Made by a program: the position numbers and the translations under genes
The notes under the pieces: model-generated
What the model was told of the DNA's origin: nothing
Seen by the model: the letters and a program-made list of their open reading frames with translations, nothing else
Database searches by the model: none
Shown here: one piece after another, positions 11,309 through 45,221 of the stretch
Numbering within the stretch: the first letter of the stretch is position 1
Layout: the number at the start of each line of letters is the position of its first letter
NCBI GenBank assembly: GCA_001714685.2
Contig: MDTP02000007.1
Coordinates: 1 to 55,184 of the forward strand
Direction: 5' to 3'
Source of the DNA: Methanosarcina sp. Ant1
GTDB taxonomy: Archaea; Halobacteriota; Methanosarcinia; Methanosarcinales; Methanosarcinaceae
DNA length: 55,184 nt

Positions 11309-11330
11309 AATTTATATTTGTTAAAATTGT

Positions 11331-26500: not shown

Positions 26501-26730
26501 TCAAAACCCAGACTGATTTTAGCATTCTCAGCTCCTTTGAAAATTATATCTGCAAGCACAAAATCCTTTGAAAGAATCCTGCTCCCGAAAAGCCCCATGA
26601 AACAGGCTTCGAGCAGGCTTGACTTTCCACTCCCGTTTACGCCGGAAATGACTGTCACTCCGTCTTCAAAAGTGAAATCCAGCTTTTTGTAGCTCCGGAT
26701 ATTTTCGACATGCAGATTTTTCAACTTCAC
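23518..26730 (-). CDS. rad50: DNA double-strand break repair ATPase Rad50
   Basis: The SMC-like ATPase of the Mre11-Rad50 complex, which tethers and processes DNA ends. The N-terminal Walker A is GVNGSGKSSLLEACFMG, and a Q-loop follows at YIRQGEID. Long coiled coils (about 180-550 and 565-890) flank the zinc hook GKCPTCGQEL, with Cys555 and Cys558 in the exact middle of the protein. The C-terminal half-site has the signature LLSGGERAIFNLVLRCAIYRLL, Walker B PPMILDEPTVFLDRGH and H-loop IIVVSHDESLID. At 1070 residues it is longer than thermophile Rad50 (about 880), due to longer coils. The start overlaps the mre11 stop by 4 bp (ATGA), so the subunits are co-translated. Confidence 0.97.
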   Translation of the reverse strand: MKLKNLHVENIRSYKKLDFTFEDGVTVISGVNGSGKSSLLEACFMGLFGSRILSKDFVLADIIFKGAENAKISLGFEHLGREYLIDQAFRYSVKSENASSSKCVFYADGESIVDQATRTYEEVCALLNMDEEAYRNCAYIRQGEIDVLINAKPKDRQRMIDDLLQLGKLEEYRERAGSAKTAVRRLERDTKNSLSSVKAEIEGIESTGPVSVMNGLKQKIKESDAALKEFNGVKDAAAARKEKFDLMIADYQGRLQEIDALKQAIRKSQENKAGCFREKENFSEEVHQQKQALLGLGEENNSIKRECGFEDLDIEVLILEQEKEEFLAREKVNGISKELALLLREEEALMQTLRDLEKEKADAERIFMQCRADIGAANREIEENRKNIRIIEEENKELKEKAEFGETNEIASFIKELEEKESLLRDRKSETSAKLVLAFKEKETGDINLIALEKELQNYKIAVRKGKTEIEILEEELRENSKAVLGVHEQKSEAFVGLKGLGFTGEQLEDLEYFSELLLENKNRLHGREKELEATLRELEKVIRKNLQLLAEGKCPTCGQELKESEIACTTEESEQKKEKLSAELMDIKLQQAEIEKKLNRLKDAKKLDKRISDYDLETEKLRTKAKDSEERIKIHKVRIEEDSLKLEELNKRKQEIEVQMGQLLPDIKALQGWEEAAQKAHRESEKALREAKAFEKKLAENALEIEALNGKIRTSLALIENYGQRLGELNEKLKALAERENLEKEKLKALGVDLEALRKKEDLAKKTHQDLEKLLLQAKNIQANLLRMENIKHKISQLEASIRNLTEKVGFFDREILERSERIKQLEEKLEGNRLEDLLLKRDQFEKAQANITEKIQQTTTAKEALLKEIGMVENSLNRFRKLKDELRALENRRLYLESVYYNAEELENTYMRVRADMRARNIGALSSLLNEMFSFMYANNAYSHIELGPEYNLTVYRKDGTPLEPKLLSGGERAIFNLVLRCAIYRLLALGFGGDRAHGLPPMILDEPTVFLDRGHVRQLLKLIDMMRSIGVGQIIVVSHDESLIDSADHVYQVEKDPLTNMSSIMRL

Positions 26731-28583
26731 AGGTAATCACCAAGGTTATACTGTCGAGGTACAGCAGGCTTTCCTTTTCCCTTTTTCTGCCCTTTCTTTG
26801 CTGCTTTTCCAGTTGTATCCGAAACCTTAATCGGCTTTCCTCCAGACAGCTCATCTGCCTTGCTTCCTGCTTCCTTTCCGGGGCTTGCTTCAGCTTCTGG
26901 TTCAGGCAAGTTTACAACCTCTTTTTCAGGCTCGTTTTCACCTTCTTTCAGGATATCCATCTCTTTTTCAGGGCCTTTCGTCAGAATTTCGTGGATTTCT
27001 TGCGGAAAAGCCGGTTCAGATGCAGGTTCAGATGCAGGTTCAGATGCAGGTTCGGATACAAGCTCGGATACAGATTCAGAAGCACATTCAGATACGGATT
27101 CAGATACGGATTCAGATACAGGTTCAGACGCACATTCAAATACGGATTCAGAAGCAGATTCGGATAGCGGTGAAGGTTCAGACGATGAACCAGAACTCTT
27201 CAGGCTCACGGCAGAAAATTCAGGATTCTTTATTGCAGGGCTCTCAATTCTGTCTGAAGCCCTCAGAATGTCAGAATTTCCAGTAATTGCCCCGATAAAT
27301 TCATTCTTTCCGGCAAATTCAGTTTCCGTGGCTGGTTTAATATCCTCATTCAACCTGATTTCAATATCATGTATAGCTTCTTGAGATTCCATAACTCTGG
27401 CAGAGCTGATAGGTATTTCGATTCTGAAATCCGGATCTTTGAAGTCAATCACCTCAATAAGCTTCGAAAGCCGGCCTTCAGTCTCTTCATCCACCCTTGA
27501 TCTTGGAACGTTAGGGTTCCGGATGATTTCATCAACAATCAACCCACCGTCGTTTAAACTCATCCTTTTGATTTCGTTTGCAACTGCATGGTCAGGGTCA
27601 GAAAAAGTGACTTTCAAAACCTCGTCGGGGAAGGACTCCTTTATCCTCAGGTCTCTAACCCTTGGTACGAGAGCTCCTTTATTCAGAAGATATTCCTCAA
27701 TTTCGCTGAAGGAAAGAACAGATCCAGAATCTCCAGAAATTTCCAGGAAAACAACTGATCCGGGAAGTTCCTCAAGATGCTCATTTATTGCAGAAAAAAT
27801 CTGTTCATAAGACTTTTCTCCCCCTTTCAGGGTTACTGGAATAGGAAGGAAATGTCGCGTAGGAATTGTGCGCCTGCTGATTTCCAGCCCTTTGTCTGAA
27901 AGAGTGATGATATTATAGGAACGAGGCTCGCTTTCCGAAGCACTGTTTCGCTCTGTACTGCCAGGATAAGTGACCCAGGTCTCTCCAACCTTAATCTTTT
28001 CATATTTATGATAATCGCCAAGAAGAATCGCATCAACCCTAAAAGGAAGCTTTTCAACCATATCAGCGCAGTCCCATTCTGCATATGGGAAAGGCTGCAC
28101 TATCTGATGCATTACAAGCAGCTTCCTGCAGTTTTCCAGCTGTGAAGTATCTGGAGCTTCAAATCCGGAATAGTCGAATAAAGGAATCTTTGACTTCGGA
28201 ACACTGTCGATCCCGTAGATTGCCACATCCCCTACCAGTCGCGGCTTTTTCCCAAGTCTTGCCGCAAGCCCCATTTCCTCAAGGAGGTCAAGCCACTGCG
28301 TATTTTGCTTGCTCTCATGGTTCCCGACAATTCCAAAAAGAGGTATGTTAGCAACCTTCAACCTGGACAGGATGTTGATAGTTTCCAGAAGGTCTTCAAG
28401 GGTCGGATTCCTTGAATCAAAAAGGTCTCCGGCATGCACGACAGCATCAACCTGCATATCAATCGCATCATTTATTACAATCTCAAAAGCCGCAAAAAGG
28501 TCCTTTCTCCGGACCTCACTGTGATACTGCTTGTATCCCAGATGCGTGTCTGCAGTGTGGAGTATCCTTATTTCCCTGTTCAT
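26727..28583 (-). CDS. mre11: DNA double-strand break repair nuclease Mre11, with long repetitive tail
   Basis: A Mn-dependent nuclease partner of Rad50. Phosphoesterase motifs: HTADTHLGYKQYHSEVRRKD, VVHAGDLFDSRNPTLEDLL, GIVGNHESKQ, MHQIVQPFP, and GDYHKYEK at residues 189-196, then TYPGSTERNSASE. In this last motif the usual G-H-x-H reads G-D-Y-H, replacing one metal-binding His by Asp; I recall G-D-N-H in haloarchaeal Mre11, so it is probably a lineage trait. The catalytic and capping parts end near residue 400. The remaining 220 residues are low complexity, including a Ser-Glu repeat (about 468-525), and end with a basic, Lys-rich stretch. At 618 residues it is unusually long. Confidence 0.95.
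   Translation of the reverse strand: MNREIRILHTADTHLGYKQYHSEVRRKDLFAAFEIVINDAIDMQVDAVVHAGDLFDSRNPTLEDLLETINILSRLKVANIPLFGIVGNHESKQNTQWLDLLEEMGLAARLGKKPRLVGDVAIYGIDSVPKSKIPLFDYSGFEAPDTSQLENCRKLLVMHQIVQPFPYAEWDCADMVEKLPFRVDAILLGDYHKYEKIKVGETWVTYPGSTERNSASESEPRSYNIITLSDKGLEISRRTIPTRHFLPIPVTLKGGEKSYEQIFSAINEHLEELPGSVVFLEISGDSGSVLSFSEIEEYLLNKGALVPRVRDLRIKESFPDEVLKVTFSDPDHAVANEIKRMSLNDGGLIVDEIIRNPNVPRSRVDEETEGRLSKLIEVIDFKDPDFRIEIPISSARVMESQEAIHDIEIRLNEDIKPATETEFAGKNEFIGAITGNSDILRASDRIESPAIKNPEFSAVSLKSSGSSSEPSPLSESASESVFECASEPVSESVSESVSECASESVSELVSEPASEPASEPASEPAFPQEIHEILTKGPEKEMDILKEGENEPEKEVVNLPEPEAEASPGKEAGSKADELSGGKPIKVSDTTGKAAKKGQKKGKGKPAVPRQYNLGDYL
27007..27180. repeat. 6/12-bp microsatellite-like repeat inside mre11
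   Basis: Variants of the hexamer TTCAGA/GCAGGT run in tandem and encode alternating S-E-(P/S/C)-(A/V) residues on the minus strand. The unit is a multiple of three, so copy changes would not shift the frame. Confidence 0.85.
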
Positions 28584-30587: not shown

Positions 30588-31300
30588 TCACATGTGCGCG
30601 TCAGATGGGAAATCGTCTAATTAGATGCCGTTCTTTCTGACATGGACTCACGAAAGTGTATTTCATGTTGAGGCTTGCCTCCCAATGTGCCAGGCTGCAC
30701 GAGATGGGAATATGCCTAAATCAAGCTTTTTTCACTTTCCCTAAAATCCAATCTTCACAATTTTCTGCTTTTGCTTTTACTTTCCCAGTCCCTGAACCTC
30801 TGACTACCAACGCTCGCTTATGTGAAAGCTGGCGTGGATGCGCATTTGGATACGGATAAGTCTCGTTTTCCTAAATTGGATACTTATCAGAAGTGGAATC
30901 TCCGCCTTCGTAGTGCCGTCGGAAATCATGCAATAGACGACTGTGAAGTTGTTACTAAGGTCTGGCGATGGGTTGCCTTATTTAACAAAAAAGTAACAGA
31001 TATTGATAAGGAGCGAACTGCCTGACAGCTCTTCCTTCAGTTACTGTCCATTCAAAAATATAAGATTCATTTGGTTTTAGAATGAGTAGAATATTTGCAA
31101 CTATCAGAGTATAAGTTACCATCTTAGAGCTGTCTTAAAATTCAAACCATTTCTACAATTGGATAATGGGCAATGTTAACTTTAAATTCTGATATTTGGT
31201 ATTGAGGGTCATTTGCTAAAAACCAAAATACAAATTTGATCAATGACCCTCACTACCTTTTAACTCTGACTTATTATTGTCTCTCAATTAAAGTGTTCAT
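30588..31300. other. gene-free stretch containing a decayed array member
   Basis: Apart from the sarcinarray-like relic at 30813-31105, no coding sequence is supported. Several 60-70-codon frames exist on the plus strand but show no protein-like features. Confidence 0.45.
30813..31105 (-). pseudogene. decayed copy of the ~200-residue array protein gene
   Basis: The nucleotide sequence follows the minus-strand array genes with many substitutions and indels. GTGAAAGCTGGCGTGGATGC matches the gene at 32768 (GTGAAGGCTGGCGTGGACGC); TCCGCCTTCGTAGTGCCGTC matches TCGCCTTCGTAATGTTCGTTGG; CCATTCAAAAATATAAGATT followed by CATTTGGTTTTAGA matches the genes at 34646 and 35903. No frame is open. It is the most distal member of the array, separated from it by the PKD gene. 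Confidence 0.7.
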
Positions 31301-31930
31301 TTACTTCACTGTGACGTAGCTTGTCTTTTGGTTGCTACCTTTAGCGTTTTTAGCGGTTAAAATCACTTTGTATTTTCCTGCCTTACTGTATTTATGTGTA
31401 GGATTCTTGACTGTTGAGGTGGATTTATCACCAAAGTTCCAGGACCAAGAAGTAGGTGATCCTGTACTCTTATCTGTGAATTTCACAGTTTTCCCAGATA
31501 TACTTGTAGAGAATGCGGCACAGGGAGTTTTCGCGGCTACAGCAGGTTTAGAAACTACAACGCTTATGACTTTTGTTATTGCGTTGCTACCCATACCCAT
31601 TACTTCTAGTGTGACATTATACTTTCCGGCTGCAGCATATGCGTGTGTTGGGTTCTGCTCGTTTGAATTATTTCCGTCTCCGAAGTCCCAATTCCACATA
31701 AATATTGTTCCGGTGCTTTTATCAGTAAATGACACATTAAATGGTGCTTTTCCGGTTGTCTGCTTTGCAGCGAACGCAGCAACGGGTGCTGTTAATGTGC
31801 TATCTGATTCATCTGTAATTGGTGTAACAGATGTAGTTGGTGTAACAGATGGTGCCAATGCAGTAGACGATCCCAAAATTAAGACCGCTAAAACTAAGGC
31901 TATTGGAAAAAGTTTTCCTATATTTTTCAT
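31301..31930 (-). CDS. secreted protein with two PKD domains
   Basis: A 209-residue exported protein. The signal peptide is MKNIGKLFPIALVLAVLILG with cleavage near residue 25; a Thr/Pro/Ser-rich stretch follows, then two PKD beta-sandwich domains (about 48-128 and 135-209) with the hallmarks WNWDFGDGNNS, NPTHAYAAAGKYNVTL and WSWNFGDKSTS, NPTHKYSKAGKYKVIL. There is no C-terminal membrane anchor, so it is released or bound to the surface non-covalently. PKD domains mediate protein-protein contacts in Methanosarcina surface layers. ATG 31930 is chosen over 31945 because CCCCCC on the plus strand (31938-31943) is its GGGGGG ribosome-binding site. A TATA box (31962-31974) lies about 35 bp upstream. 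Confidence 0.9.
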   Translation of the reverse strand: MKNIGKLFPIALVLAVLILGSSTALAPSVTPTTSVTPITDESDSTLTAPVAAFAAKQTTGKAPFNVSFTDKSTGTIFMWNWDFGDGNNSNEQNPTHAYAAAGKYNVTLEVMGMGSNAITKVISVVVSKPAVAAKTPCAAFSTSISGKTVKFTDKSTGSPTSWSWNFGDKSTSTVKNPTHKYSKAGKYKVILTAKNAKGSNQKTSYVTVK

Positions 31931-32767
31931 TAATCTTCCCCCCATTTCTTAGTATATTATCAATTATATAAATTCTAATATTTTTATACTAGTTTGGTCA
32001 TTTTTTAATTAATTGATTCTCATCAACATAATAGAATTGTATAACTTGCATATAACTTTAAGAGAAAAATGTCTTCTTACATTTGTTATTTATTATCATA
32101 TATTCTAACATATAATCATTGAAGTAAAAGTTCTACTTTATTCCGGGTCCTCAAAAATGATCAGTTATTTACGGGCTAATCAGCCTTTTTTCATGAATTT
32201 AATATATCTTTATTGCTTCCCAAATAAAAGTAAAATAGATTAATAATTTATATTGCATTTAAAAGATTAAAAACCTTTAATTTTGCTTTTTAAGGCTTTA
32301 TGGTCTTTATTTTCAATATCCAATTCTGAATACTCAAAAATGGTATCGTATGCCACAATTGCAAATAAATCTAATTTTCTAAAAAAATCACACTTTTATT
32401 CTACTTTTAACCAATTTTAAAGAAAAACAGGACTTACTTTTCTAAATATCGAATTTTTAAATTGTACTTTTACAGGAAGAACTCTAAATTCCCTCTCTTA
32501 TAAAAAATAAGCATTTTGAATCCCCAATTTACACAATGATTTTGGAGAATTTTATACTTTAATTTTAAAACATCTTGAAGAGTTAGCTCTGGAATATCTG
32601 AGTAAAAAAGAGACTTTCTTTAGATTTCTTCAGGCATTTTATAGGAGCTCTTGAGAGGTTCAAGGTAGAATCAAAAAGAATGTAAAGGCTTATCATTTTT
32701 GCAGAGAGCACATTCCATCAAGTAACCTGAACAGGTTTTTCAAAAAATAAGCCTATTAGCAGGATTT
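31931..32767. other. AT-rich intergenic region between PKD gene and array
   Basis: About 840 bp, strongly AT-rich. It holds the PKD gene's promoter (TATA around 31962-31974) and the 3' region of the surface-protein array. No frames or RNA features are supported. Confidence 0.45.
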
Positions 32768-33379
32768 TCACCTGCGTAACAAGACTAAAAACAATGCAAG
32801 AACTGAAATCGCGCCTGCAAGTGTGAAGGCTGGCGTGGACGCAGCTGTGTGTGCGGATGTGGATGAAGCCTCTGTTTTTGAAACTGGCTGCTCCTTAGAA
32901 GCGGGAGTTTCGCCTTCGTAATGTTCGTTGGATATATAAGGATAAACAACTGTGAATTCACCTTGTACTAGAGGCTCATCTTCACTGACATTATGTATTT
33001 GATACCAAATATTCACTGGCATCGTTCCACTTTCCCATTCTCCAGTTGGTTTTAGTGTCCATTCAAAAGTATATGTTCCCGGATCTAAGGATTCAAAATA
33101 TAACTTTTTATCGAATTCAGAGGGACCTTTTATAACTTCATAAGGAGCTCCCACCCTTAGACTGCATACTTTTATGAATAATATTGATTTTTGATTCAAT
33201 GTTAGGTTTATTTTTACTTTGAAAGGTTCTCCTATTTTCAATGCAGGCTTAGCTACTTCTTTTCCCGGTAAAAGCTGATCATTATAGTAAACATCTATAG
33301 TACCATATTGAGAACTTGCTGAAACGACATTTGTCAACAAGAGAAATACCATTCCAATTGTAAAAATTCTGAGTTTCAT
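32768..33379 (-). CDS. sarcinarray-type secreted surface protein, copy 5
   Basis: A 203-residue protein with a signal peptide (KLRIFTIGMVFLLLTNVVSA), the shared domain YYNDQLLPGKEVAKPALKIGEPFKVKINLTLNQ, a variable middle, GEFTVVYPYISNEHYEGETP, a Ser/Thr/Pro-rich stalk and a C-terminal hydrophobic segment PAFTLAGAISVLALFLVLLRR. The tail (PAF, hydrophobic helix, basic end) resembles a PGF-CTERM archaeosortase signal. I recall such tandem Methanosarcina proteins under the name 'sarcinarray family MAST domain'; that label is from memory. It is the most divergent full copy and starts 2 bp after the truncated giant-gene fragment at 33382. Confidence 0.8.
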   Translation of the reverse strand: MKLRIFTIGMVFLLLTNVVSASSQYGTIDVYYNDQLLPGKEVAKPALKIGEPFKVKINLTLNQKSILFIKVCSLRVGAPYEVIKGPSEFDKKLYFESLDPGTYTFEWTLKPTGEWESGTMPVNIWYQIHNVSEDEPLVQGEFTVVYPYISNEHYEGETPASKEQPVSKTEASSTSAHTAASTPAFTLAGAISVLALFLVLLRR

Positions 33380-33381
33380 AA

Positions 33382-33941
33382 TTATTCACCAAATTGTGCA
33401 GCAAGAGCTTCATATCCAGCTGATTTTTCAATAGAACCACCTGTTTTATCTCCAACTCCTTTTGGACCTGGACCAACCACAGTAGAGGAGTATCCAACGA
33501 ATTGAAATGTTAGTGGAACATTATCTCCGATATATTTTCCATTATGTAGGATTGAATCGTCTTTTCTGATATACATCTGCCCTTTATTCCCAAAGTAAGG
33601 TTTAGGAATGACTTCATTATCGTTGTCTATGACCTTAAATTCGTTATACATTCCAATTGCCTCATACGTCCACACATTTATTGTGAAAATCCAATTCGGA
33701 GGCAGCAGAGGCAGTCCGCATGGGACAGCTGACATTGTCTTGTCCAGCCTTTTTGAAACCTGGTATCCAACTTCACCTGAATACATATTCTCATTTGCCA
33801 GATTTTTCAGTTCGCTGTCGACTCTCCCAAAGCCGGCGTCAAGCACTGGACCTTTATTTTTGGTAACTGCACAGATGCCGTTTGCAACACCTATTCTGCC
33901 ATCAATCTCGACTCTATTCAGAGTTGCTTCGAGTTGATCTG
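33382..33941 (-). pseudogene. truncated 3' copy of the giant surface gene (fragment 3)
   Basis: It matches the last ~200 codons of the giant gene at 37741-41718. The homology begins at the same point as in the other two fragments (within ELEATLNRV, at 33941). An open frame of 154 codons starts at an internal GTG (33846) and covers DAGFGRVDSELKNLANENMY, SAVPCGLPLLPPNWIFTINVW and VVGPGPKGVGDK; the part between these (about 33490-33560) differs strongly from the other copies. It lacks the membrane helix and any start signal, so it is a silent partial copy or at most a cytoplasmic fragment. Confidence 0.75.
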
Positions 33942-33985
33942 GTTAAAAATAAGTTTTAAAAAATTAAGTTTTATCGCCATAATTT

Positions 33986-34585
33986 TTACTTATGAATGAA
34001 TTCGAGAAATACAAGAGCAAGCGCCGCAATAGCCGTTACTAAACTGAAAGCTGGTGCAGATTTAGGTGTGGGTTGAGATCCAGAAACTGGCTGCTCCTTA
34101 GAAGTGGGAGTTTCGCCTTCGTAATGTTCGTTGGAGATGGTGCAGTAGGCGACGGTGAATTCACCTGTTACTGCAGGGTCATCTTCACCAGGAAGGTTAA
34201 TCTGATACCAAAAGTTTATTGGAATAGAACCTCCAGCCCATTCATCAGTAGGTACAATTGTCCCTTCAAAGATATATTTTACAGGATCTAAAGACTTAAT
34301 GTATTTTGTTTTTTCGAACTCTGACGGACCATCTACTACTTTAAACAAATTTCCCCCTAAACTGCAGACTTGCACAAACAAACTACTGGTCTGATTTAAC
34401 GTCATTTCGATCTTTATCTTGAAAGGTTCTCCAATTTTGAGCATTGGCTTTGCAACCTCTTTTCCAGGCAGTAGCTCATTATTATAATAGGTATTAATTT
34501 CTCCATAAGAACTCATAGCAATAGCTGTGCTCGGCAAAATAAAGATTCCAATAACTACTGTAATCGATAAGCATTTCACTTTCAC
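33986..34585 (-). CDS. sarcinarray-type secreted surface protein, copy 4
   Basis: A 199-residue protein: signal peptide (KVKCLSITVVIGIFILPSTA), INTYYNNELLPGKEVAKPML, a middle that differs from the other copies (SSLFVQVCSLGGNLFKVVDG), WAGGSIPINFWYQI, EFTVAYCTISNEHYEGETP and a C-terminal anchor SAPAFSLVTAIAALALVFLE. Its last ~180 bp are nearly identical in DNA to the copies at 35903 and 37139, while the centre resembles the copy at 32768 more (both keep a Cys-Ser-Leu stretch). Unlike the others, no truncated giant-gene fragment precedes it; the gene at 34646 does. Confidence 0.82.
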   Translation of the reverse strand: MKVKCLSITVVIGIFILPSTAIAMSSYGEINTYYNNELLPGKEVAKPMLKIGEPFKIKIEMTLNQTSSLFVQVCSLGGNLFKVVDGPSEFEKTKYIKSLDPVKYIFEGTIVPTDEWAGGSIPINFWYQINLPGEDDPAVTGEFTVAYCTISNEHYEGETPTSKEQPVSGSQPTPKSAPAFSLVTAIAALALVFLEFIHK

Positions 34586-34645
34586 AAATACTCCTCACAT
34601 TGTAAAAAAGGATTCAGAGCCTAATATTATCTCTACCAAAGTTCC

Positions 34646-35266
34646 TTATTTGTGCAATGATCTAAGAAATACAATTGCAAGCACTGCAATGGCAGCTACT
34701 AAACTGAAAGCTGGTGCAGACCTAGGAGTAGGTTGAGTTTCAGGAGATGATTGAATTTTCGAAACTGGCTGCTCTTCAGGAGTGGGAGTTTCGCCTTTGT
34801 AATGTTCGTTGGAGATGGTGCAGTAGGCGACGGTGAAACCACTATTTATTACAGGTTCAGGGTTACCTTTTTCTACTATTGAATAATGAAAATTGATAGG
34901 AAGTGATCCACCTGCCCATCCTTCAGTTGGTTTAACTATCCATTCAAAAATATGAGATTCATTTGGTTTTAGATTGACACTAGAATATCTGTTTATTTGG
35001 GAAGGACCCTCAATCACTTCAAAATCGCCACTTCCGATCTCTGATATTTGTCCCGATACTTTATATTCATGATAGACTGTCATGTTTACTTTTATGTTAA
35101 AAGGCTCTCCAATCTTCAGGATTGGTTTTGCTACTTCCGTACCTGGAAGAAGTTTATCATTGTAATATACATCGTATGTATAAATTTCTCCATAAGGATT
35201 AGTTGCAGTCGATAAATTAATAGTAGACATTAATATTGACAGTATGATCAGGTATTTTACTTTCAT
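34646..35266 (-). CDS. sarcinarray-type secreted surface protein, copy 3
   Basis: A 206-residue protein with signal peptide (KVKYLIILSILMSTINLSTA), VYYNDKLLPGTEVAKPILKI, the middle KVSGQISEIGSGDFEVIEGP, WAGGSLPINFHYSIVEKGNP, GFTVAYCTISNEHYKGETPT and an anchor SAPAFSLVAAIAVLAIVF. The middle third is close to the copy at 35903, but the stalk between the domain and the anchor is longer (KIQSSPETQPTPR). It begins 2 bp after fragment 2 of the giant gene (35269) and is probably co-transcribed with the rest of the array. Confidence 0.82.
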   Translation of the reverse strand: MKVKYLIILSILMSTINLSTATNPYGEIYTYDVYYNDKLLPGTEVAKPILKIGEPFNIKVNMTVYHEYKVSGQISEIGSGDFEVIEGPSQINRYSSVNLKPNESHIFEWIVKPTEGWAGGSLPINFHYSIVEKGNPEPVINSGFTVAYCTISNEHYKGETPTPEEQPVSKIQSSPETQPTPRSAPAFSLVAAIAVLAIVFLRSLHK

Positions 35267-35268
35267 AT

Positions 35269-35861
35269 TTACACACCATAACTCTGGGAGAGATTTTCGT
35301 AGGCAATTGATTCTTCAGTTTGTCCCTCTATCTTATCACCAACTCTCCGTGGTCCGGGACCAACTATGGAAGTTGCATATCCATTAAATTTAAAGCTAAT
35401 TTTTTTGTTATCACCTAACTTTACATTGTAGCCAAATTCATCGGTTTTTATCGGATTATAAATTTCGGAGTATTTTCTTACATATCGCTGTCCTTTATGT
35501 CTAAAATAAGGCTCAGGAATCACTTCATTATCGTTATCAATGACAGTAAAGGCTTCATATTCTCCTATTATCTCATACGTCCATACATTCATCGTAAAAA
35601 GCCAGTGTGGCGGCAATAATGGCAGTCCACATGGGATAGCTGCATTGTTCTCTCCAGCCTTTCTGAAACCAGGTCATCTGCCTCTCCCGAATGCATATCC
35701 ACAGTTTTCATTTGCCAGCCTTTTCAGTTCGCTGTCGACTCTCTCAAAGCCGGCGTCAAGCACTGGACCTTTATTTTTGGTAACTGCACAGATACCGTTT
35801 GCAACTCCGATTTTGACGTCAGCGTCGACTCTATTCAGAGTGGCTTCTAGTTGATCTGGTT
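35269..35861 (-). pseudogene. truncated 3' copy of the giant surface gene (fragment 2)
   Basis: It matches the giant gene's 3' end from the same boundary as the other fragments (35861). The first ~240 bp carry small indels that break the frame (around 35640-35700, where the copy of KRLDKTMSAVPCG is garbled). The last 115 codons are open from 35616 (MPPHWLFTMNVWTYEIIGEY to VVGPGPR-like IVGPGPRRVGDK). The segment between YVRK and FNGYATS differs from the other copies. Decayed. Confidence 0.78.
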
Positions 35862-35902
35862 AAAAATAAGTTTTAAAAAATTAAGTTTTATTGCCATAAT
35901 TT

Positions 35903-36502
35903 TTACTTATGAATGAATTTGTGAAATACAAGAGCAAGCGCCGCAATAGCAGTTACTAAACTGAAAGCTGGTGCAGATTTAGGTGTGGGTTGAGATCCAG
36001 AAACTGGCTGCTCCTTAGAAGTGAGAGTTTCGTCTTCGTAATGTTCGTTAGATATGGTGCAGTAAGCAACGGTGAATTCACTATTTAGTACAGGTTCAGG
36101 GTTGCCTTTTTCTACAATTGAATAATGGAAGTTAATAGGAATTGATCCACCGGCCCACTTGTCGGTTGGTATAACGGTCCATTCAAAAATATGAGATTCA
36201 TTTCCCTTTAAAATGATACTTGAATATTTATTTATCTTAGAAGGTCCATCTATGACCTCGAAATAACCTTCCCCTAATTCCGTAAGTTTGCCAGATACTT
36301 TGTACTCTTGATAAACAGTCATGTTTATCTTCACATCAAAAGGCTCTCCAATTTTTAAAATTGGTTTTGCAACTTCTTTTCCAGGCAATATATTATCGTT
36401 AAAGTAAACATCGATTTTTCCGTAAGGACTTGTAGCAGTAGCTGTACTCGGCAAAAAAAAGATTCCAATAGCTATTGCAATTGATAAGTATTTCAATTTC
36501 AC
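35903..36502 (-). CDS. sarcinarray-type secreted surface protein, copy 2
   Basis: A 199-residue protein with signal peptide (KLKYLSIAIAIGIFFLPSTA), VYFNDNILPGKEVAKPILKI, the middle KVSGKLTELGEGYFEVIDGP, WAGGSIPINFHYSIVEKGNP, EFTVAYCTISNEHYEDETLT and an anchor SAPAFSLVTAIAALALVFHK. Its start overlaps the stop of fragment 1 by 4 bp (ATGA), the same coupling seen between the intact giant gene and copy 1. It lies on the 1.24-kb repeat period of the array. Confidence 0.82.
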   Translation of the reverse strand: MKLKYLSIAIAIGIFFLPSTATATSPYGKIDVYFNDNILPGKEVAKPILKIGEPFDVKINMTVYQEYKVSGKLTELGEGYFEVIDGPSKINKYSSIILKGNESHIFEWTVIPTDKWAGGSIPINFHYSIVEKGNPEPVLNSEFTVAYCTISNEHYEDETLTSKEQPVSGSQPTPKSAPAFSLVTAIAALALVFHKFIHK

Positions 36503-37097
36503 GATAATCCCTCATATTCAGATAAAAGACCTTCATAACCAATCGATTGCTCAACGTTCCCTCCAACCCTATCTCCTACACCTTTTATTCCAGGTCCGAC
36601 CACCGTTGCTGCATATCCACTAAATCTAAAATAAATTGGTATATTATCTCCCCATTTCAAGTAGTACCCTTCTTCATCAGTTTTTATAGGATCATAAACT
36701 CCAGAGTCTTCTCTCACATACTTCTGCCCCTTATACCCAAAGTAAGGCTCAGGAATCACCTCATTATCATTGTCGATAACAGTAAATACCTGATATTTCC
36801 CCACGATTTCATAAGTCCATACATTTGCCGTAAAAATCCAGTGTGGAGGCATTACCGGCAGCCCGCATGGAACTGCCGACATTGTCCTGCTCAGCCTTTT
36901 TGAAACCTGGTCTCCCACTTCACCGGAATACTTATCCACGGTTTCATTTGCCATCTTTTTCAGCTCACTATCGATTCTTCCGAAGCCGGCGTCAAGTACC
37001 GGGCCTCTAGTTTTGGTGACCTCACAGACGCCGTTTGCAACACCAATTCTGATGTCAGTGTCAACTCTATTCAGAGTTGCTTCGAGTTGATCTGGTT
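36499..37097 (-). pseudogene. truncated 3' copy of the giant surface gene (fragment 1)
   Basis: It matches the giant gene's last ~200 codons, from the same boundary (37097) inside the E-L-E-A-T-L-N-R-V codons. The frame is open throughout and reads TNKG-like sequence, then DAGFGRIDSELKKMANETVD, SAVPCGLPVMPPHWIFTANV and VVGPGIKGVGDR, but a TAA lies just upstream and the first usable start is an internal ATG at 36954 (151 codons). The best-preserved of the three fragments and the one that could still be expressed or act as a template. Confidence 0.78.
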
Positions 37098-37138
37098 AAA
37101 AATTAGTTTTAAAAAATTAAGTTTTATCGCCATAATTT

Positions 37139-37744
37139 TTACTTATGAATGAATTTGAGAAATACAAGAGCAAGCGCCGCAATAGCAGTTACTAAACTGA
37201 AAGCTGGTGCAGATTTAGGTGTGGGTTGAGATCCAGAAACTGGCTGCTCCTTAGAAGTGGGAGTTTCGCCTTCGTAATGTTCGTTGGAGATGGTGCAGTA
37301 GGCGACGGTGAAACCACCATTAACGAGAGGCTTAGTGTCACCATGAGCAAGAATTGTGTAATATATATCTAGAGGTAACGATCCGCCTGTCCATCTTTCA
37401 GTCGGCTTTACAGTCCACTCGTATTCTTTAGAAGAGTTTGCTTCTAAGATATCTCCTTTTGAGTACTCTTCTATTCTCAAAGTTGGGCCATTTATAATTT
37501 CAAAAGAATTTTTTTCCATGCATGATAAAGAGACATAAACATCACTTTTTTGATATACTGTTAGATTAATTTTTACTTTAAATGGCTCTTCTACTTTTAA
37601 AGTTGGTTTAGCTATTTCGTTTCCAGGTAAAAGTTTATCATTGTAATATACGTCCATTGAACCGTGTAAAGATCCAGCAAGAGTAATGCTTGGTATAAGT
37701 AAAAAAACCATAAGTAAAGAAAATATCCGTCTTACTTTTATCAT
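37139..37744 (-). CDS. sarcinarray-type secreted surface protein, copy 1 (coupled to intact giant gene)
   Basis: A 201-residue protein with signal peptide (RRIFSLLMVFLLIPSITLAG), VYYNDKLLPGNEIAKPTLKV, a unique middle (YVSLSCMEKNSFEIINGPTL), WTGGSLPLDIYYTILAHGDT, GFTVAYCTISNEHYEGETPT and an anchor SAPAFSLVTAIAALALVFLK. Its start overlaps the giant gene's stop by 4 bp (37741-37744), so both are translated together and probably act together at the surface. This pair is likely the ancestral unit from which the downstream array was copied. Confidence 0.85.
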   Translation of the reverse strand: MIKVRRIFSLLMVFLLIPSITLAGSLHGSMDVYYNDKLLPGNEIAKPTLKVEEPFKVKINLTVYQKSDVYVSLSCMEKNSFEIINGPTLRIEEYSKGDILEANSSKEYEWTVKPTERWTGGSLPLDIYYTILAHGDTKPLVNGGFTVAYCTISNEHYEGETPTSKEQPVSGSQPTPKSAPAFSLVTAIAALALVFLKFIHK

Positions 37745-40700
37745 ATTTTCCCTCCTAATTCCCTCGAAAGATTTTCGTAATCTTCTGACATTTCATTCGA
37801 TCCCCCAATTTTGTCTCCAACCCCTCTTGGCCCTGGGCCTACAACTGTTGTTGCGTAACCACTAAAATCGAAAGTAATCATTTCATTAGTTCCTAGCTTC
37901 AATGCAACTCCATTTTCGTCTTTCTTAAAAGGATGAAATATTGGTGTTTTTTCTCTCACATACTTCTGCCCCTTGTGCCCAAAGTAAGGCTCAGGAATCA
38001 CCTCATTATCATTGTCGATAACACTAAACACCTGATATTTTCCCACAATCTCATACGTCCATACATTTGCCGTAAAAATCCAGTGTGGAGGCATTACCGG
38101 CAGTCCGCATGGGACAGCTGACATTGTCTTGTCCAGCCTTTTTGAAACCTGGTCTCCAACTTCACCTGAATACATATTCTCATTTGCCAGCTTTTTCAGT
38201 TCGCTGTCGACTCTCCCAAAGTCGGCGTCAAGCACTGGACCTTTATTTTTGGTAACTGCACAGATGCCGTTTGCAACACCGATTTTAACGTCAGTGTCGA
38301 CTCTATTCAGAGTGGCTTCGAGTTCATCAGGTCCTACTGGCGGTTTTGAATTCCTTATTTCGGTTTTGATGGCGGCGGAAAGTTCGGTTGCGAGCTCTTT
38401 TGTAGTGGTTTTTTGGATTAACTGGTCATCGGAGAGGCTGTTAAGATAGCTGGATGTAACTTCATGGACACGGCTTTCTTTGATCCAGCCTGAAATAACA
38501 GGATTTGAACGCAATTCGACGGCTACTTCTTTAACTATTTGAGTTCTCATTTCTTGCGCGTATGTATGCTTCAAGTTATGGACTTCCGAGCTAAGACGAG
38601 TTGTATCGAGGGAAACTTTTTGTTCGCTGAGGTTCTGTTCAAGCAGGAAAACTTCAGAATTCAGAGTCGAAATGCTCTGGCTGATCTGCTGGGCAGTTTC
38701 GGTTTTTACGTACTCGCCGCTTGAGGCTACAGCATCTGCGATTTCCTCGGAAATGCCGGTTGTGAAAATACAGGTGTTCCGGACGCCAAGGGGATATAGT
38801 GTTTTCCCGCTTATAGTGTCGGTCCACTCGTATTCTCTTCGGAGGTCGAAATCAGGGTCGTGGTAGAGATAGTTAGGCTTCTGGTCAACGATGAGGGTCA
38901 GGTTTTCGGTCCAGTTGTATTTGCTTTCCGGCTGACCGGTAACGGTCATTGTGGAGATAATGCCCATGTCTTTACCGAGTGCTGAAGATGCCATTTCAAT
39001 TGCAGGGTTATTAAAAAGAGTCATAGGGCCTGAAGTTACACTGTCAAGCGCGCCGGTATTAAGGCCTTTTTTCTCAAGGGCATCCAGAATATAGGAATTG
39101 AGGTCAGAGTCCAGCTTACTATTTTTCTGTTCGATGTCTTTGAGCAGCTTGTTGTAGGCTTCGTTTCTTGCGATGTAGCGGGCAGAATCGCTTGAGGAGT
39201 ATATTTTTCCTGCAGGGGTGAGGTGCTGATCTTTATCTACATAGGCTCCTCGGCTGGATTCCAGCTTCAGAATAATTTTTTTGGCGGCTTCTACTTGCAG
39301 GTCGGTTGGGCTCCGGCCTGGAGAATCAACCAGGGAATAGTTGAAGGCTGGATTGTCTTTTTCTATAGAATCAAGCATTGCCAGCACTTCTTCTCCCATT
39401 ACCCTATGCAGCCACGAAGGGACATCGCAATTGACTGCATGTTGGGCCATGTACATTCTGTCAGGGTAAGCCCAGAAACTGCTCTCGATTGCCCTGAAAT
39501 CCACAGAGGCTTCCCTGTATTTGTCGGCTGCATCGGAACAGCATGGATCAAACCTATCTGCCTCATCCGCATAGACGTTTGTTTCTCTATATTCTCGTGC
39601 TAGGGGATCGGCATAGGTTGATATGCCTGTATAGCCGCCTGCTGGAGGGCGTTTGTGGTATATTATTGTCAGGTTCTCGGATTCGGTTTCGGTATGAGAA
39701 AAGGATTCTGTTTCAGTCTCGCTTGCAGTTTCAGAGTCCGAGCCGTGCGATATATCATAATGGGTTACAGTCGTGTAATTTCCGTCCGGTAACTTCTCCC
39801 TGGTTCTCCAACTGTAGGTATAATCATAACTGTAATCTATTTTCCATTTTGTTTTTATTGTATAGGAAATATCGTACCCGACCCTCCAGTCAAAAACGTG
39901 GTCTTCCCGGGTCAGGTATCCTTCGCTCCTGTTCTCAACTGTAAGGCTATCGTTACTTGCGTAAGAGTAGTGCGGTTCAATCCTGACATCACTTATGTCA
40001 GTAGACAGCAAACTGACAGACACCCCTGTAACAGACCAGCTGACTACGCTCCCTCTCGGAGGGTCGATTGAAGGGCTTAAAGACTTGGAATAAGAATTTG
40101 TAGCAGAATCACTCCAGGAATAAGACGGCACAAGAGACCCGGTATGCGCTCCGGATGGAAAGTAGTTAGAATTCCAGTTGACTGTGTGCCCACTGAAGGA
40201 AACTGAACGGCTGTCGAAACCTGCAGTGACCGTTGAGTCCATCAGTTTTGGAGAATCGAAACCATCTCTCAGGATTTGCCCCTGTACGGAAGCTGTGTAA
40301 ACGCTATCTGTGATGGTATGAATAAGATCAGGATTTTCCGTTGTCCATACATGATCATTGAAGGCCCAGCCGTCGAGAACCCCGTCTGTGTAATCTGACG
40401 CAGAGACGGTTATTTTCGAATAATCCGAAAGCTCTTCAATGGAAGTATTTGCCTGTCCGAGGGATTTTCCGATGTCTTTTTCTACATCCAGGGAAAAAGA
40501 CCTGTCCTGTGCAAGGGAATTATAGGTAGTTGTAGGGTTTACGTTCTTCTCCTTTTCATAAATAGATCCTGAAGCGTTGGGAACGGTTGCATCCTGCCCG
40601 GAACCTGTTTTTTTACTGCTGGAAGCGAAAAAATCTTCATAAAGGACTTTTCCATTATAGTAGGTAGTGTAGGTAAGAGCCAGGGGGTCAACTGAATCAA

Positions 40701-41718
40701 AAACTTTTTTCTGGGTATAAAGTGTAGCCCCGTTAATAGAGCTTGAAAGTGCAGGGTTAGTAAGAATATTCAGAGGACCGTTTGCATAATGCTGCCAGGG
40801 GCCATAAACAAAAGTCCTCAGGTTTGTTGCTCCAAGCACTATATTGGATGCCGAATCCAGGCCCGATGAATTCCCGAGATCGGCTTCGTATTCTCTGACA
40901 AGCTCTTCCAGCAGAGGTTCCCTCGAAGTGATCAGGGTGGAAACGTTCATACTGCTGTTGAATGTCTTTCCGGATTCAAGATCCACAAGGGTATAATTCA
41001 GAACAGGAATTTCGAAGACGTAGTAAATAGTGTAATTCTTGTTAGCAGGGTAAATTTCCCTCTGCAGAGTTCCTTTTACTTTCTTTATCTTCATCTGCTC
41101 GGGTTTTATGTCAGGTTTTACATTAACGGCATATTGCATGAAGGTATGACTATTTCCCTGGTAATTTGCAGAAAGAAGCTTGTTAAGAGAGTCTACCGTG
41201 ATATCCTTTACGGGGCTTACTCCAATCAGGAACCAGTCGGAGGCTTTCAGTTCATCCCCATAGTAGAGTTCGATTGACGAATATCCTGATCTTGCTGAAT
41301 CCGGAATTTTTACATTTTCCTCGAAGGAGACTTTTTGAAAAAAGCCAGTAGCCTGACCATAGTTCAAGTTTTTGATTTCATTACCTTTGGAATCTTTGAC
41401 AATTAGCTTAATGTCCCTATTTTTCCAGATGGATTCTATTTTACCCCATACATCAGATGGCAGATTTACGGAAATTTGAAGAGCTTCCCCATTTTCAAGG
41501 TTTTGGTTTTTAGGAATTAGCATAAAACCGTCTTTGGAAACCCTTTCAATAGGAATGTTTTCGGGAAGGATCACAGGATGTTCTCCCTGCCATTCCAGTG
41601 CTTCCATCCCTGCATAGTTAAGGCAGCGAGAAAGATCAGATGCCGCAAGGTTGATAGCTGTCTGACTAGGGTCACTTTTCTCTGTCGTATAAATGGTTTC
41701 GGCTACTTCACTATCCAT
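37741..41718 (-). CDS. giant membrane-anchored surface protein (DUF7286-like)
   Basis: 1325 residues from ATG 41718, but the frame stays open upstream to 41893 and encodes a clear membrane helix (YIPYSIIGIFIVLAATFTSV) just before that Met, with no ATG, GTG or TTG ahead of it. A large extracellular part follows, rich in Ser, Tyr and Asp, with Ser/Thr/Glu stretches at about residue 680, and two helical regions (about 860-930, 1050-1190). The C-terminus (SAVPCGLPVMPPHWIFTANV to VVGPGPRGVGDK) and the layout of an N-terminal helix preceded by a short cytoplasmic tail resemble haloarchaeal DUF7286 proteins as I remember them. Function unknown; a surface or pilus-related role is inferred. A CTG at 41859 is the only near-cognate start that would include the helix. 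Confidence 0.8.
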   Translation of the reverse strand: MDSEVAETIYTTEKSDPSQTAINLAASDLSRCLNYAGMEALEWQGEHPVILPENIPIERVSKDGFMLIPKNQNLENGEALQISVNLPSDVWGKIESIWKNRDIKLIVKDSKGNEIKNLNYGQATGFFQKVSFEENVKIPDSARSGYSSIELYYGDELKASDWFLIGVSPVKDITVDSLNKLLSANYQGNSHTFMQYAVNVKPDIKPEQMKIKKVKGTLQREIYPANKNYTIYYVFEIPVLNYTLVDLESGKTFNSSMNVSTLITSREPLLEELVREYEADLGNSSGLDSASNIVLGATNLRTFVYGPWQHYANGPLNILTNPALSSSINGATLYTQKKVFDSVDPLALTYTTYYNGKVLYEDFFASSSKKTGSGQDATVPNASGSIYEKEKNVNPTTTYNSLAQDRSFSLDVEKDIGKSLGQANTSIEELSDYSKITVSASDYTDGVLDGWAFNDHVWTTENPDLIHTITDSVYTASVQGQILRDGFDSPKLMDSTVTAGFDSRSVSFSGHTVNWNSNYFPSGAHTGSLVPSYSWSDSATNSYSKSLSPSIDPPRGSVVSWSVTGVSVSLLSTDISDVRIEPHYSYASNDSLTVENRSEGYLTREDHVFDWRVGYDISYTIKTKWKIDYSYDYTYSWRTREKLPDGNYTTVTHYDISHGSDSETASETETESFSHTETESENLTIIYHKRPPAGGYTGISTYADPLAREYRETNVYADEADRFDPCCSDAADKYREASVDFRAIESSFWAYPDRMYMAQHAVNCDVPSWLHRVMGEEVLAMLDSIEKDNPAFNYSLVDSPGRSPTDLQVEAAKKIILKLESSRGAYVDKDQHLTPAGKIYSSSDSARYIARNEAYNKLLKDIEQKNSKLDSDLNSYILDALEKKGLNTGALDSVTSGPMTLFNNPAIEMASSALGKDMGIISTMTVTGQPESKYNWTENLTLIVDQKPNYLYHDPDFDLRREYEWTDTISGKTLYPLGVRNTCIFTTGISEEIADAVASSGEYVKTETAQQISQSISTLNSEVFLLEQNLSEQKVSLDTTRLSSEVHNLKHTYAQEMRTQIVKEVAVELRSNPVISGWIKESRVHEVTSSYLNSLSDDQLIQKTTTKELATELSAAIKTEIRNSKPPVGPDELEATLNRVDTDVKIGVANGICAVTKNKGPVLDADFGRVDSELKKLANENMYSGEVGDQVSKRLDKTMSAVPCGLPVMPPHWIFTANVWTYEIVGKYQVFSVIDNDNEVIPEPYFGHKGQKYVREKTPIFHPFKKDENGVALKLGTNEMITFDFSGYATTVVGPGPRGVGDKIGGSNEMSEDYENLSRELGGKI

Positions 41719-43559
41719 TTTCAGAAGGTAAACTGAAGTAAAGGTTGCGGCAAGGACAATGAAAATCCCGATTATGGAATAAGGAATGTACGCATCCGTA
41801 TTCCTACTGAAAGATGAACATTTGTTAGACGATTTTTCGACCGTAGACCCTACCCCCAGGAAAAATGGAGAATCAGTTGTGAAAGTAAATGTTTACACTT
41901 AGCTCATTCAAGCATTTACAGTATATAAAAAATATTAAAGTGTTCACATGCATAAATATTTTTCTTAAGTTGGAAAAGTCCACTAAAAAACAAAGAAATT
42001 GCAAAAAATAAAAAATAAGCCAGAAATTAAATGATTAAAATCAAAGAAACAAATCTAAAAGAGTAAATGAAAGAAAAAAACGTAACTGTTGAGCACACCC
42101 TAAATTAGTTTATTGACGCCTGCCTCTCTCTTTGCACCTTACTATTTGCGTTAGCGTGGTTTCAGAACTCTTTACCATCAGACAGCAAAATAGAAAACGT
42201 CACCAAAAAATAAGTAGCATTTTCATAAACAGTTAATCTATAATTTTTCCATTGGACTGGGAGATCCTAACTTCTTATATTTTCTTTCTCTCCATTTCTT
42301 AAGTATTTTCTTCGCTACAAAGTAACACACAATCATCTTAATGATATAAAGAGAGATTAAAAGTAATATCATTTTACTCCGATTTCGTAAATATAGATGC
42401 GCTCAGAGTACTGCATACTCTATTTGTTATCACGCGATATAGATAAGTCTTGTGTGTTCATAACGGGTCACCCTGGAAATCTCGTTCCATATTCCATATC
42501 GCTTTTTTATAGTTATTTATATTCTCCAAAGAAAACGTCTTTTATAACGAGATGATGCTATTATATGAATGTATGTTAGGCTTTAAGTTTATATTGCTAG
42601 GATCTCAACTTAACTCTTAAAATCCCTTATTTAATTTGATAATAGTTTCTTTAAATGTATCTCTCAAATGAATTCTTGTCTCTGTCCTCATCTTGCATTT
42701 CTGTAAGCACCAGTATCTCGAAACTAAGGAATGGTTAAAAAATAACTCCAAGTTTTCACTTTGGGAATGGCTATATAATTCCATTTCCCCAAATAAACAT
42801 CAAAGAATATACGGTAACAGAAATGCTTGAAATTATAGTTTCATTTTGGAAGGTATTAACAGTATTGTACAGTTAATGAAAAGAAATGCTAGAGGGTATT
42901 GAAACACTCAGTATTTTATTAACATGATCTATCTAAAAATAGGAAAGTTAGATTTCAAACTACCCATATGAAGTGGTGAAGAGCCAAAAATACTGCAAGC
43001 CCTATCAAACCCGGCACTTTTCACTCCCTCTGGTGGTATTTTATCGATAAATCAAGAGGCCTTCTATTACATTTTGGGTTTTTATTGAGAGTAGCCAGCT
43101 ATCAGTGAATTAATTCTAAATTTTGTGATCCAGAAAGTATTAAAAAGCCTCTTATTTTGAGTTGTATCAGCAGGTGTATTGAGTATTCAAACAATATAAC
43201 ATGTAAAGAAATATGGTTAAGAAACCAGTATTAATTAAAGATGGACTTTTTATAGTAGTTTTTTCCTAAACTTCATATAATATCCATATTTTTAACATTT
43301 TTTTATTATAAAAAGCAATTATTTTATTTAATTTTATATAATGTGTGTAAAAATAGAGTTTAAAACCCATTATTACTCTAAGTTAAATAGTTTATATTCA
43401 AGTTTCAAGAAATATTTCAACAAATGCCGTTTTTAATAATAATTCTTCCTATAGTGAGTAATTTTTTTCTTATTTTTACTAAGCTTGCAATATGAGTTAG
43501 TGAGCAGTTGCAGTTGCAGTCACACCCAATGGAAAGCATGCGGTTTCAGCTTAATGGGA

Positions 43560-43860
43560 TAACACGCTTAAAGTCTGGTATCTAGAAAAGGGGGAAAATG
43601 GCTCTTATTTTATAGTGGACTCTTCCTATGTAACTTGCAACATTTCACCAGATAGTAAGGTGTGTCAAGTTGACCTTTCGGGTCAGATCTTAACTACTGG
43701 ACAAACAAGAGCTATTTCGAGGGAGTTAATGACCCCAGATCTTAGGGTTGATTGTAGGTTAATGGTAGTGTTCTCCGTGATGTTCCCCGTGGTGGTCCTC
43801 GTGTTGGAAAATTCCGCGTAAAGCTTTCAGTGCATATTTTTCCAGATCAGGTCTCTACCA
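43560..43860 (+). pseudogene. possible decayed surface-protein gene fragment
   Basis: The frame around 43590-43821 reads W-L-E-K-G-E-N-G-S-Y-F-I-V-D-S-S-Y-V-T-C, then SPDSKVCQVDLSGQILTTGQ, with the beta-rich look of Methanosarcina surface domains, but stops and lost frames surround it and no start or signal peptide is visible. I cannot name the parent family. Confidence 0.25.
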
Positions 43861-44093
43861 CAGCTTTCTGGACATCGTCTGAATGTTTTAAATCCGTAAC
43901 AGAAGAAGCCTTCTGGACAGATACCGGTTCCTGGGCATGGAGTAAGTTAATTCCTTCTGATAAACATGCTTCCGAACTCACACATCAACAGTTTCGGCAG
44001 TGGTAGAAAATATTAGAGACCAGGACTGGCTTTTCAGCCTGGTTTGACATACAATTCAAAAATAGAAAAACTGACATTCTACGTGCAGACTCT

Positions 44094-44250
44094 TCATGCG
44101 TAAATCATGATCGAATCGAGTCTTGCAGTACCTATCTTTGTCCAGTACTTGCAAATGATACAGTACTGGGTCTCGCTGTCTGAGCTTAATTTCAGTTTAC
44201 CATGGCATTTTGGACATATTTTTAGACTTTTCGTAAATAAACCCCCTTAA
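44094..44250 (-). pseudogene. zinc-ribbon fragment without a start codon
   Basis: The minus strand reads CPKCHGKLKLSSDSETQYCI then I-C-K-Y-W-T-K, a complete C-x2-C ... C-x2-C ribbon, ending at a TGA (44094-44096). The frame is open back to a TAA at about 44250 but has no ATG, GTG or TTG before the first Cys. It looks like the surviving end of a former gene; expression from an unusual start is the alternative. Confidence 0.4.
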
Positions 44251-44365
44251 TACTAAAATAAATTATGTAGGACTTATGCAGTTTAACTAAGAAATCAATA
44301 ACATTAAACCTTTAACTGGTTAAAATAAAATTTAAACCACAAAGTTTATTGTATTTGATTTAAGT

Positions 44366-44512
44366 CTATTGTATTTGATTTTGTACCTCAAGTATGTAAG
44401 TCATATCCTTTACTGTATCCCCAATACAGCCGCTCTTTATTAGTGCTCCATCAAACACACTCATCAGAGCAGGAATATTTGCCCTCGGACTGTTCTTTCG
44501 CAACCCGCTCAT
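44366..44512 (-). CDS. 48-residue hypothetical small protein
   Basis: An ATG-started frame reading MSGLRKNSPRANIPALMSVF and ending in EVQNQIQ. It shows no recognisable motif, ribosome-binding site or promoter. The sequence looks mildly protein-like, but it may be another relic of this gene-poor region. Confidence 0.2.
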   Translation of the reverse strand: MSGLRKNSPRANIPALMSVFDGALIKSGCIGDTVKDMTYILEVQNQIQ

Positions 44513-45221
44513 ACTTCAACATTCGATCATTTCTGTCTCTTCCAACTCCAATCTATAGTAGTAATATTATAAGCTACTTTAAATTTATTATACAAAAAAT
44601 TGTTTAGCATCAAAATCTATTTTTGAATTAAAAATTATTAAGCCAGCATCGAACCTTAGCTGAGATTTATTATTAACAATAAATGCTATAAAAAATAAGG
44701 TTGTAATCCACATCTATATAAATTTCCATTAGAACTGAAGGGGTATTATTAGTCAGCAAATAATATGATTTATATATCAGTGTGCTGGCTATTACTTTAT
44801 ATTAATTATTTGATATTATGCATATTATCAGAATGTCCTTTTTTTCCATTTATATTGCCTGTGGGCTAACCATGAACAATCTACTCAAACTTATTTTCTG
44901 ATAAATCATCAGATCCCATTTTTTCCGGATCGTTAGCTTTAGCAGGTATATAGAGTATGAAAAATAAATAGGGTCAAGGGTATTTAGCATGAATGAGACA
45001 GTGGGCTTCTTGTAAATAGGGCTTTGTGGCCAAGTTAACAACCAGTGTGACTTCCCGGGATAGGATAAGGGATTAATTCCCCTTTTGGGGATATATAGTG
45101 CGAAGTCTCGAAAATATTCATTCGGGCTTTTAACTCACTCAAAAATCGTGAAAAAACGATTGTATTCCAGTTTAAAATGCAATTTAGTTCCCTCCAAAAA
45201 ATTGACTCGATTCTGTTATTT

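Follow-up and report, generated by a model that had tools for sequence, protein, structure and literature searches.

A probable cassette system for a matched pair of surface proteins in Methanosarcina

Within a 55,184-nucleotide stretch of Methanosarcina sp. Ant1 (contig MDTP02000007.1, positions 1 to 55,184; hereafter the window), the minus strand carries an array made of one giant gene of the DUF7286 family, five small genes of the sarcinarray family (TIGR04209; S1 to S5, or S genes) and three fragments of the 3' end of the giant gene. This composition, already given in a preliminary description of the DNA, was confirmed from the open reading frames (ORFs) and by sequence comparison, and a search of the host genome (G000, a Methanosarcina genome of 4.29 Mb over 342 contigs) found no further copies elsewhere in it. 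The array is probably, with a chance of about two in three, a cassette system for a pair of surface proteins, in which the variable tip of the giant protein and the product of the next small gene would form one exchangeable unit matched by binding. Recombination at the locus is well supported by the sequence comparisons described below; we infer that tip and S protein bind each other physically and that the pair serves in recognition.

Co-variation of tips and small genes

How closely do a tip and the small gene that follows it belong together? Giant 3' ends, fragments and S genes were gathered from 22 of 31 Methanosarcina genomes (one genome per species, several of the assemblies being drafts), which yielded 41 tip-plus-S modules in 21 genomes, S being in each the gene next after the tip. 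Between genomes the distances among variable tips correlate strongly with those among the middles of the adjacent S genes (Mantel r = 0.85, p ≤ 0.0005), whereas the stretches lying between tip and S middle follow weakly (r = 0.27-0.38); for the giant sequence just upstream of the tip the correlation with the S middle is 0.03. Shuffling partners within genomes abolishes the match (p = 0.0002), and when tips and S middles are clustered separately the resulting types agree with an adjusted Rand index of 0.65-0.87, as against at most 0.26 in shuffles. The correlation is 0.86 for giants only, 0.83 for detached modules only and 0.86 with one module per genome; it ranges from 0.83 to 0.87 when single genomes are left out, and given all other segments the partial correlation is 0.83. 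Since linkage alone would predict at least as high a correlation for the intervening stretches, the natural reading of these comparisons is that tip and S protein fit each other. In-frame fusion of tip and S was sought as evidence of contact, and none was found besides stop-separated in-frame pairs (L034; L044 at 11223-12416).

Tips fall into discrete types that recur in different species; six of the seven occur both on a giant gene and, elsewhere, as a detached module. The type of fragment 3 and S5 is the one found on the giants of G002 and G003, and the type of S4 is that of the S partner of the G030 giant. The tip type of the window's own giant has no donor in the array, its relatives being detached modules in G005, G007 and G025.

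Of 112 Methanosarcinaceae genomes, 71 carry S genes, and outside Methanosarcina an S gene follows the giant 3' end in most of the loci opened. In two further families of the same order there are tandem arrays of DUF7286 tip fragments, every one with an S gene of the sarcinarray type behind it (L101, L103, L119, L126, L128). The name sarcinarray itself points to arrays in Methanosarcina. A different arrangement is seen in G106 and G108, where FN3-, cohesin- and dockerin-like sequence is joined to the S domain in place of the usual sorting helix (L063:6764-8464 and L064:3229-4935, reverse-strand coordinates).

Array layout and exchange through conserved arms

The features of the array and its surroundings are the following.

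37741..41718, minus strand: giant surface gene, an annotatable ORF of 1325 amino acids whose C-terminal part is PF23957 (DUF7286); a helical stalk is followed by the tip domain
41722..41790, minus strand: N-terminal transmembrane segment of the giant, YIPYSIIGIFIVLAATFTSVYLL, in frame, located before the first ATG and conserved throughout the relatives
37846..37956, minus strand: variable tip of the giant, type with FHPFKKDENGVALKLG
37957..38330, minus strand: mosaic left arm of the giant, a conserved 3' region with homology to the starts of the fragments
37139..37744, minus strand: S1, sarcinarray/MAST small gene coupled to the giant by a 4-bp ATGA overlap
37096..37138, minus strand: common spacer between S1 and fragment 1
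about 36502..37095, minus strand: fragment 1 of the giant 3' end, frame open, without start or anchor; tip at 36604-36714
35903..36502, minus strand: S2, matched partner of fragment 1 (type YQEYKVSG)
35861..35902, minus strand: common spacer between S2 and fragment 2
about 35272..35860, minus strand: fragment 2 of the giant 3' end, frameshifted; tip at 35368-35478
34646..35266, minus strand: S3, matched partner of fragment 2 (type YHEYKVSG)
33986..34585, minus strand: S4, orphan small gene without a fragment, of the type that partners a giant tip in G030
33943..33985, minus strand: common spacer between S4 and fragment 3
about 33385..33942, minus strand: fragment 3 of the giant 3' end, frame open; tip at 33481-33567 (type SILHNGKYIGDN)
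32768..33379, minus strand: S5, matched partner of fragment 3 (type LNQKSILFIKVCSLR)
30840..31130, minus strand: one more small gene past the end of the array, reduced to a decayed remnant

As first described, the three fragments begin at the same base of the giant gene and share a spacer, which measures about 43 bp. The repeats of about 1.24 kb, each of fragment, small gene and spacer, hold for the array except at S4, which has no fragment before it and is separated from S3 by a different spacer; the spacing of the S genes is 1203/678/1239/1236 bp. Fragments 1 and 3 are open and fragment 2 is frameshifted, and all three are without a start codon and without the N-terminal membrane anchor that is common to all giant relatives.

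A Pfam scan of the giant found DUF7286 as its sole domain, scoring 113 bits (79 bits for fragment 1; gathering cut-off 27 bits) and matching only the C-terminal part of the model. An AlphaFold model of the last 440 residues has a confident helical stalk, while most of the tip falls below 50 in predicted local distance difference test score (pLDDT). S1, S2, S3 and S5 match TIGR04209 at 185-213 bits, and in the genome search all five, including S4, reach 177-214 bits (curated cut-off 45 bits). The S proteins have a signal peptide and a C-terminal sorting helix, the C terminus being of the MAST/archaeosortase type (TIGR04204), and because of these two elements S would act outside the cytoplasm. 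The structural model of S consists of a signal helix, a beta sandwich, a disordered linker and the C-terminal helix, with a block of about 125 residues at pLDDT 91-98. Foldseek matched it to immunoglobulin (Ig)-like folds of varied functions (complement MG domains, MSP, a chaperone) with TM-scores of at most 0.54, which permits a statement at the level of the fold only. S is probably a secreted Ig-like protein anchored at the surface. A search of solved structures with sequence profiles of S and of the giant gave no match.

The copies in the array differ by 42-50% in the DNA of their tips where their arms differ by 5%. The same holds at synonymous sites, with a synonymous divergence (dS) of 0.04-0.22 in the arms and above 1 in the centres, that is 5- to 40-fold apart inside one duplicate. 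Between the giant and fragment 3 dS rises from 0.10 over the initial part of the arm to 1.07 over its second part and 1.56 in the tip; between the giant and fragment 1 the corresponding values are 0.56, 0.22 and 1.38; and between S1 and S4 dS is 0.04 at the 3' end and 1.83 in the middle. As dS jumps inside single modules, neither chance nor protein constraint explains the contrast between arms and centres. Near-identity up to the motif N-V-W, a divergent centre and a conserved end had been reported for the fragments, and this pattern of flanks and centre stands; but the stretch from N-V-W to the tip is not uniform, the giant being 95% identical to fragment 1 and 74-78% to fragments 2 and 3. 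Similarly, the 3' ends of the small genes are nearly identical, as described, for S1, S2 and S4 (dS 0.04-0.13), S3 being intermediate, but not for S5.

Moreover, the giant is itself a mosaic. A breakpoint in its left arm (maximum chi-squared, permutation p = 0.0002) separates an upstream part that resembles fragment 3 at 95% and fragment 1 at 84% from a downstream part for which these values are 74% and 95%. The giant and the fragments of this array have therefore exchanged arms. Comparable exchange is seen between species and loci. The giants of G008 and G023 are 89% identical in the body and 94% just before the tip, then 44% in the tip and 50% in the S middle, before identity recovers to 93% over the S end and 99% further downstream. 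In G007 the giant bodies of two loci are 99.2% identical while the 3' ends with the tips and the S genes differ, and here identity drops within a few bases of the position at which the window's fragments start. Windows that compared fragments with giants in other genomes were misaligned through indels and are left out here. Of 57 S genes, 55 have in some other genome a best match whose variable middle is more similar (mean 90%) than are the giant bodies of the two genomes (83%), with less similar S 3' ends (76%), values that the choice of the best among many inflates. For the closest S pairs the synonymous divergence of S is likewise below that of the giants (for example 0.15 versus 0.38 for G010/G001 and 0.04 versus 0.30 for G008/G010). 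To judge from these alignments, the replaced islands are in-place cassette exchanges, and related giants thus do contain, at the level of species, the mosaic variants whose absence between strains had been named beforehand as evidence against donor cassettes. No relatives were found among viral contigs.

The decayed small-gene remnant listed above sits past a small secreted gene with two PKD domains (31301-31945), which suggests that the array formerly extended further. Elsewhere in the window, more than 3 kb 5' of the giant (41900-45200) are without a clear gene, which is atypical for this DNA, and an Mre11-like gene (26727-28583) has a degenerate 12-bp tandem repeat at 26984-27187 that encodes a Ser/Glu-rich C-terminal stretch. 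An Rfam search of the window gave no match.

Retention of small genes, proposed mechanism and alternatives

When the pieces of one gene are joined before counting, 57 S genes are intact and 6 broken, as compared with 12 intact and 15 broken fragments (p = 7.5e-6). The ratio of nonsynonymous to synonymous differences (pN/pS) is 0.35-0.37 for detached and orphan S genes and 0.37 for those coupled to a giant; that of intact fragments is slightly relaxed (0.35 versus 0.30 for giants). Intact and equally constrained detached genes suggest that S is probably expressed and useful in the absence of a tip. The fragments would be dispensable stores or remnants, and they can equally be displaced former tips. 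The preliminary description had proposed silent donors that rewrite a surface protein, and the cassettes with conserved flanks, the mosaic giant and the replaced islands agree with this proposal; but the small genes are not silent donors, since the detached ones are intact and as constrained as the coupled ones, and the exchanged unit is a tip plus the next small gene, co-varying as matched types. Other layouts occur in the collection: at L070 (G073) four S genes come in direct succession after a giant, without intervening fragments, the partners having multiplied without tips, and at L039 (G006) most of the giant body is gone through internal deletions, yet the 3' end and the S gene are intact.

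How could such a locus work? Most likely the giant protein is anchored in the membrane by its N terminus and carries, at the end of a helical stalk, the variable tip, and the next gene supplies a secreted Ig-like S protein with a C-terminal sorting helix and a variable face that matches and would bind this tip. The left arm of a cassette would be the conserved 3' region of the giant, the right arm the S 3' end, the spacer and the start of the next fragment. Homologous recombination through these arms, by gene conversion or unequal crossing-over, would load a new cassette on the giant, incoming cassettes being drawn from the array or from other strains and species and old ones displaced into the array, while gene conversion would keep the arms alike. 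Additional S genes could be kept as displayed, tip-independent receptors, or protectors against the tips of other strains, that widen recognition or resistance.

The likeliest purpose of such a pair, to go by its sequence features, would be self/non-self or partner recognition between cells. More tentatively, and with odds against it, the locus might be an archaeal self/non-self system in which one giant tip and several S receptors are displayed and identity is switched by cassette recombination, including the uptake of cassettes of other species. If true, this would be an order-wide, toxin-free archaeal counterpart of matched-pair kin-recognition loci.

Several points weigh against the cassette system as proposed. 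No in-frame ATG, GTG or TTG lies upstream of the membrane segment of the window's giant (41722-41900); its relatives do have a start codon there, often GTG, possibly where the window genome reads GTA, and the giant may use a rare start (e.g. CTG), have a damaged start or reflect a sequencing or assembly error. The tip, and with it any interface with S, has no confident model. The best-match comparison of S genes given above is biased towards high values, each gene being credited with its best among many candidates. Outside Methanosarcinaceae, tip and S co-vary less strongly and less specifically: r is 0.52 (partial 0.28) in two other families and 0.35 (partial 0.39, p = 0.0005) in one family alone; co-variation of tip and S is claimed firmly for Methanosarcina only.

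Alternatively, antigenic variation in the style of pilins could be at work, with silent fragments rewriting the exposed end of the giant against viruses or grazers and S being replaced along with it as an assembly partner. The mosaic giant, the homogenised arms, the islands replaced between related giants and the fragments without start and anchor would all be expected, but orphan S genes with no donor beside them remain intact and under constraint, many fragments are broken, and the variation consists of discrete shared types rather than a continuum of mosaics within tips, which makes this account rather unlikely. Less probable still is a polymorphic toxin of the kind of contact-dependent growth inhibition (CDI) or Rhs systems, in which the tip would be or deliver a toxic element, S would confer immunity, the fragments would be orphan tips and the extra S genes a collection of immunities. 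The architecture, the mobile and detached modules that are fused to giants elsewhere and the partners that outlive the fragments match orphan cdiA-CT/cdiI arrays (PMC3150448), but the variable part comprises just about 29-37 residues inside a conserved domain, S works outside the cytoplasm to judge from its signal peptide and sorting helix, and no toxin or defence family was matched in Pfam, NCBIfam or PADLOC, an absence of match that is no proof. Plain tandem duplication and decay, with copies spread by occasional transfer and no switching function, would account for the broken fragment 2, the many broken fragments elsewhere and the decayed S remnant past the array, but was rejected as highly improbable on account of the synonymous divergence, and the mosaic giant and the co-variation of tips and partners across species speak against it as well.

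Comparison with known systems

The cassette system proposed here resembles several known loci in part. With the silent cassettes of pilins (pilE/pilS) it shares one full gene, 5'-truncated start-less copies with conserved flanks and divergent centres, and a mosaic full copy, the mosaic lying in the left arm of the giant while the tip itself is without a donor in the array. In contrast to pilins, each donor has an intact partner gene of its own, and the variants are discrete shared types. Pilin systems had been offered at the outset as an analogue; closer are the orphan modules of CDI/Rhs systems and the archaeal VARTIG modules.

With the orphan cdiA-CT/cdiI and rhs-CT/rhsI modules (PMC3150448) the array shares start-less 3' fragments, a specific partner gene directly after each C-terminal region, mobility between species, with modules detached in one genome and fused to the full gene in another, and partner genes that stay functional. 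It differs in the short, internal variable part, in a partner that would be exported and anchored rather than cytosolic, and in its archaeal host.

VARTIG modules were described in Thermococcales around arCOG07710, and their authors found no closely similar module in other archaea (PMC8416519). Common to both are a large surface protein that is secreted and whose C-terminal region is hypervariable, smaller downstream genes homologous to this region, Ig-fold proteins, interspecies exchange and the lack of a recognisable toxin. The large protein is, however, unrelated (DUF7286 rather than arCOG07710/CARDB), the partners belong to one dedicated family, of which S1-S5 are clear members (sarcinarray/MAST; TIGR04209, TIGR04204), rather than to the heterogeneous membrane genes of VARTIG, and the distribution covers Methanosarcinaceae and two sister families rather than Thermococcales. 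In addition, matched-pair co-variation is quantified here, and recombination is visible within one locus. In the open-access literature no publication was found that links sarcinarray genes to DUF7286, tip co-variation, cassette exchange or switching.

The locus is filed with neither CDI/Rhs nor VARTIG, as it departs from a defining feature of each, the toxin domain in the former and the large protein and lineage in the latter. It represents a VARTIG-like module outside Thermococcales that occurs across Methanosarcinaceae, two sister families having related arrays. It also offers, from sequence, an example of two matched proteins held together while recombination reshuffles their surroundings. 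As the hosts include genetically tractable Methanosarcina species, and discrete tip types come with matching partners, self/other discrimination in archaea becomes testable.
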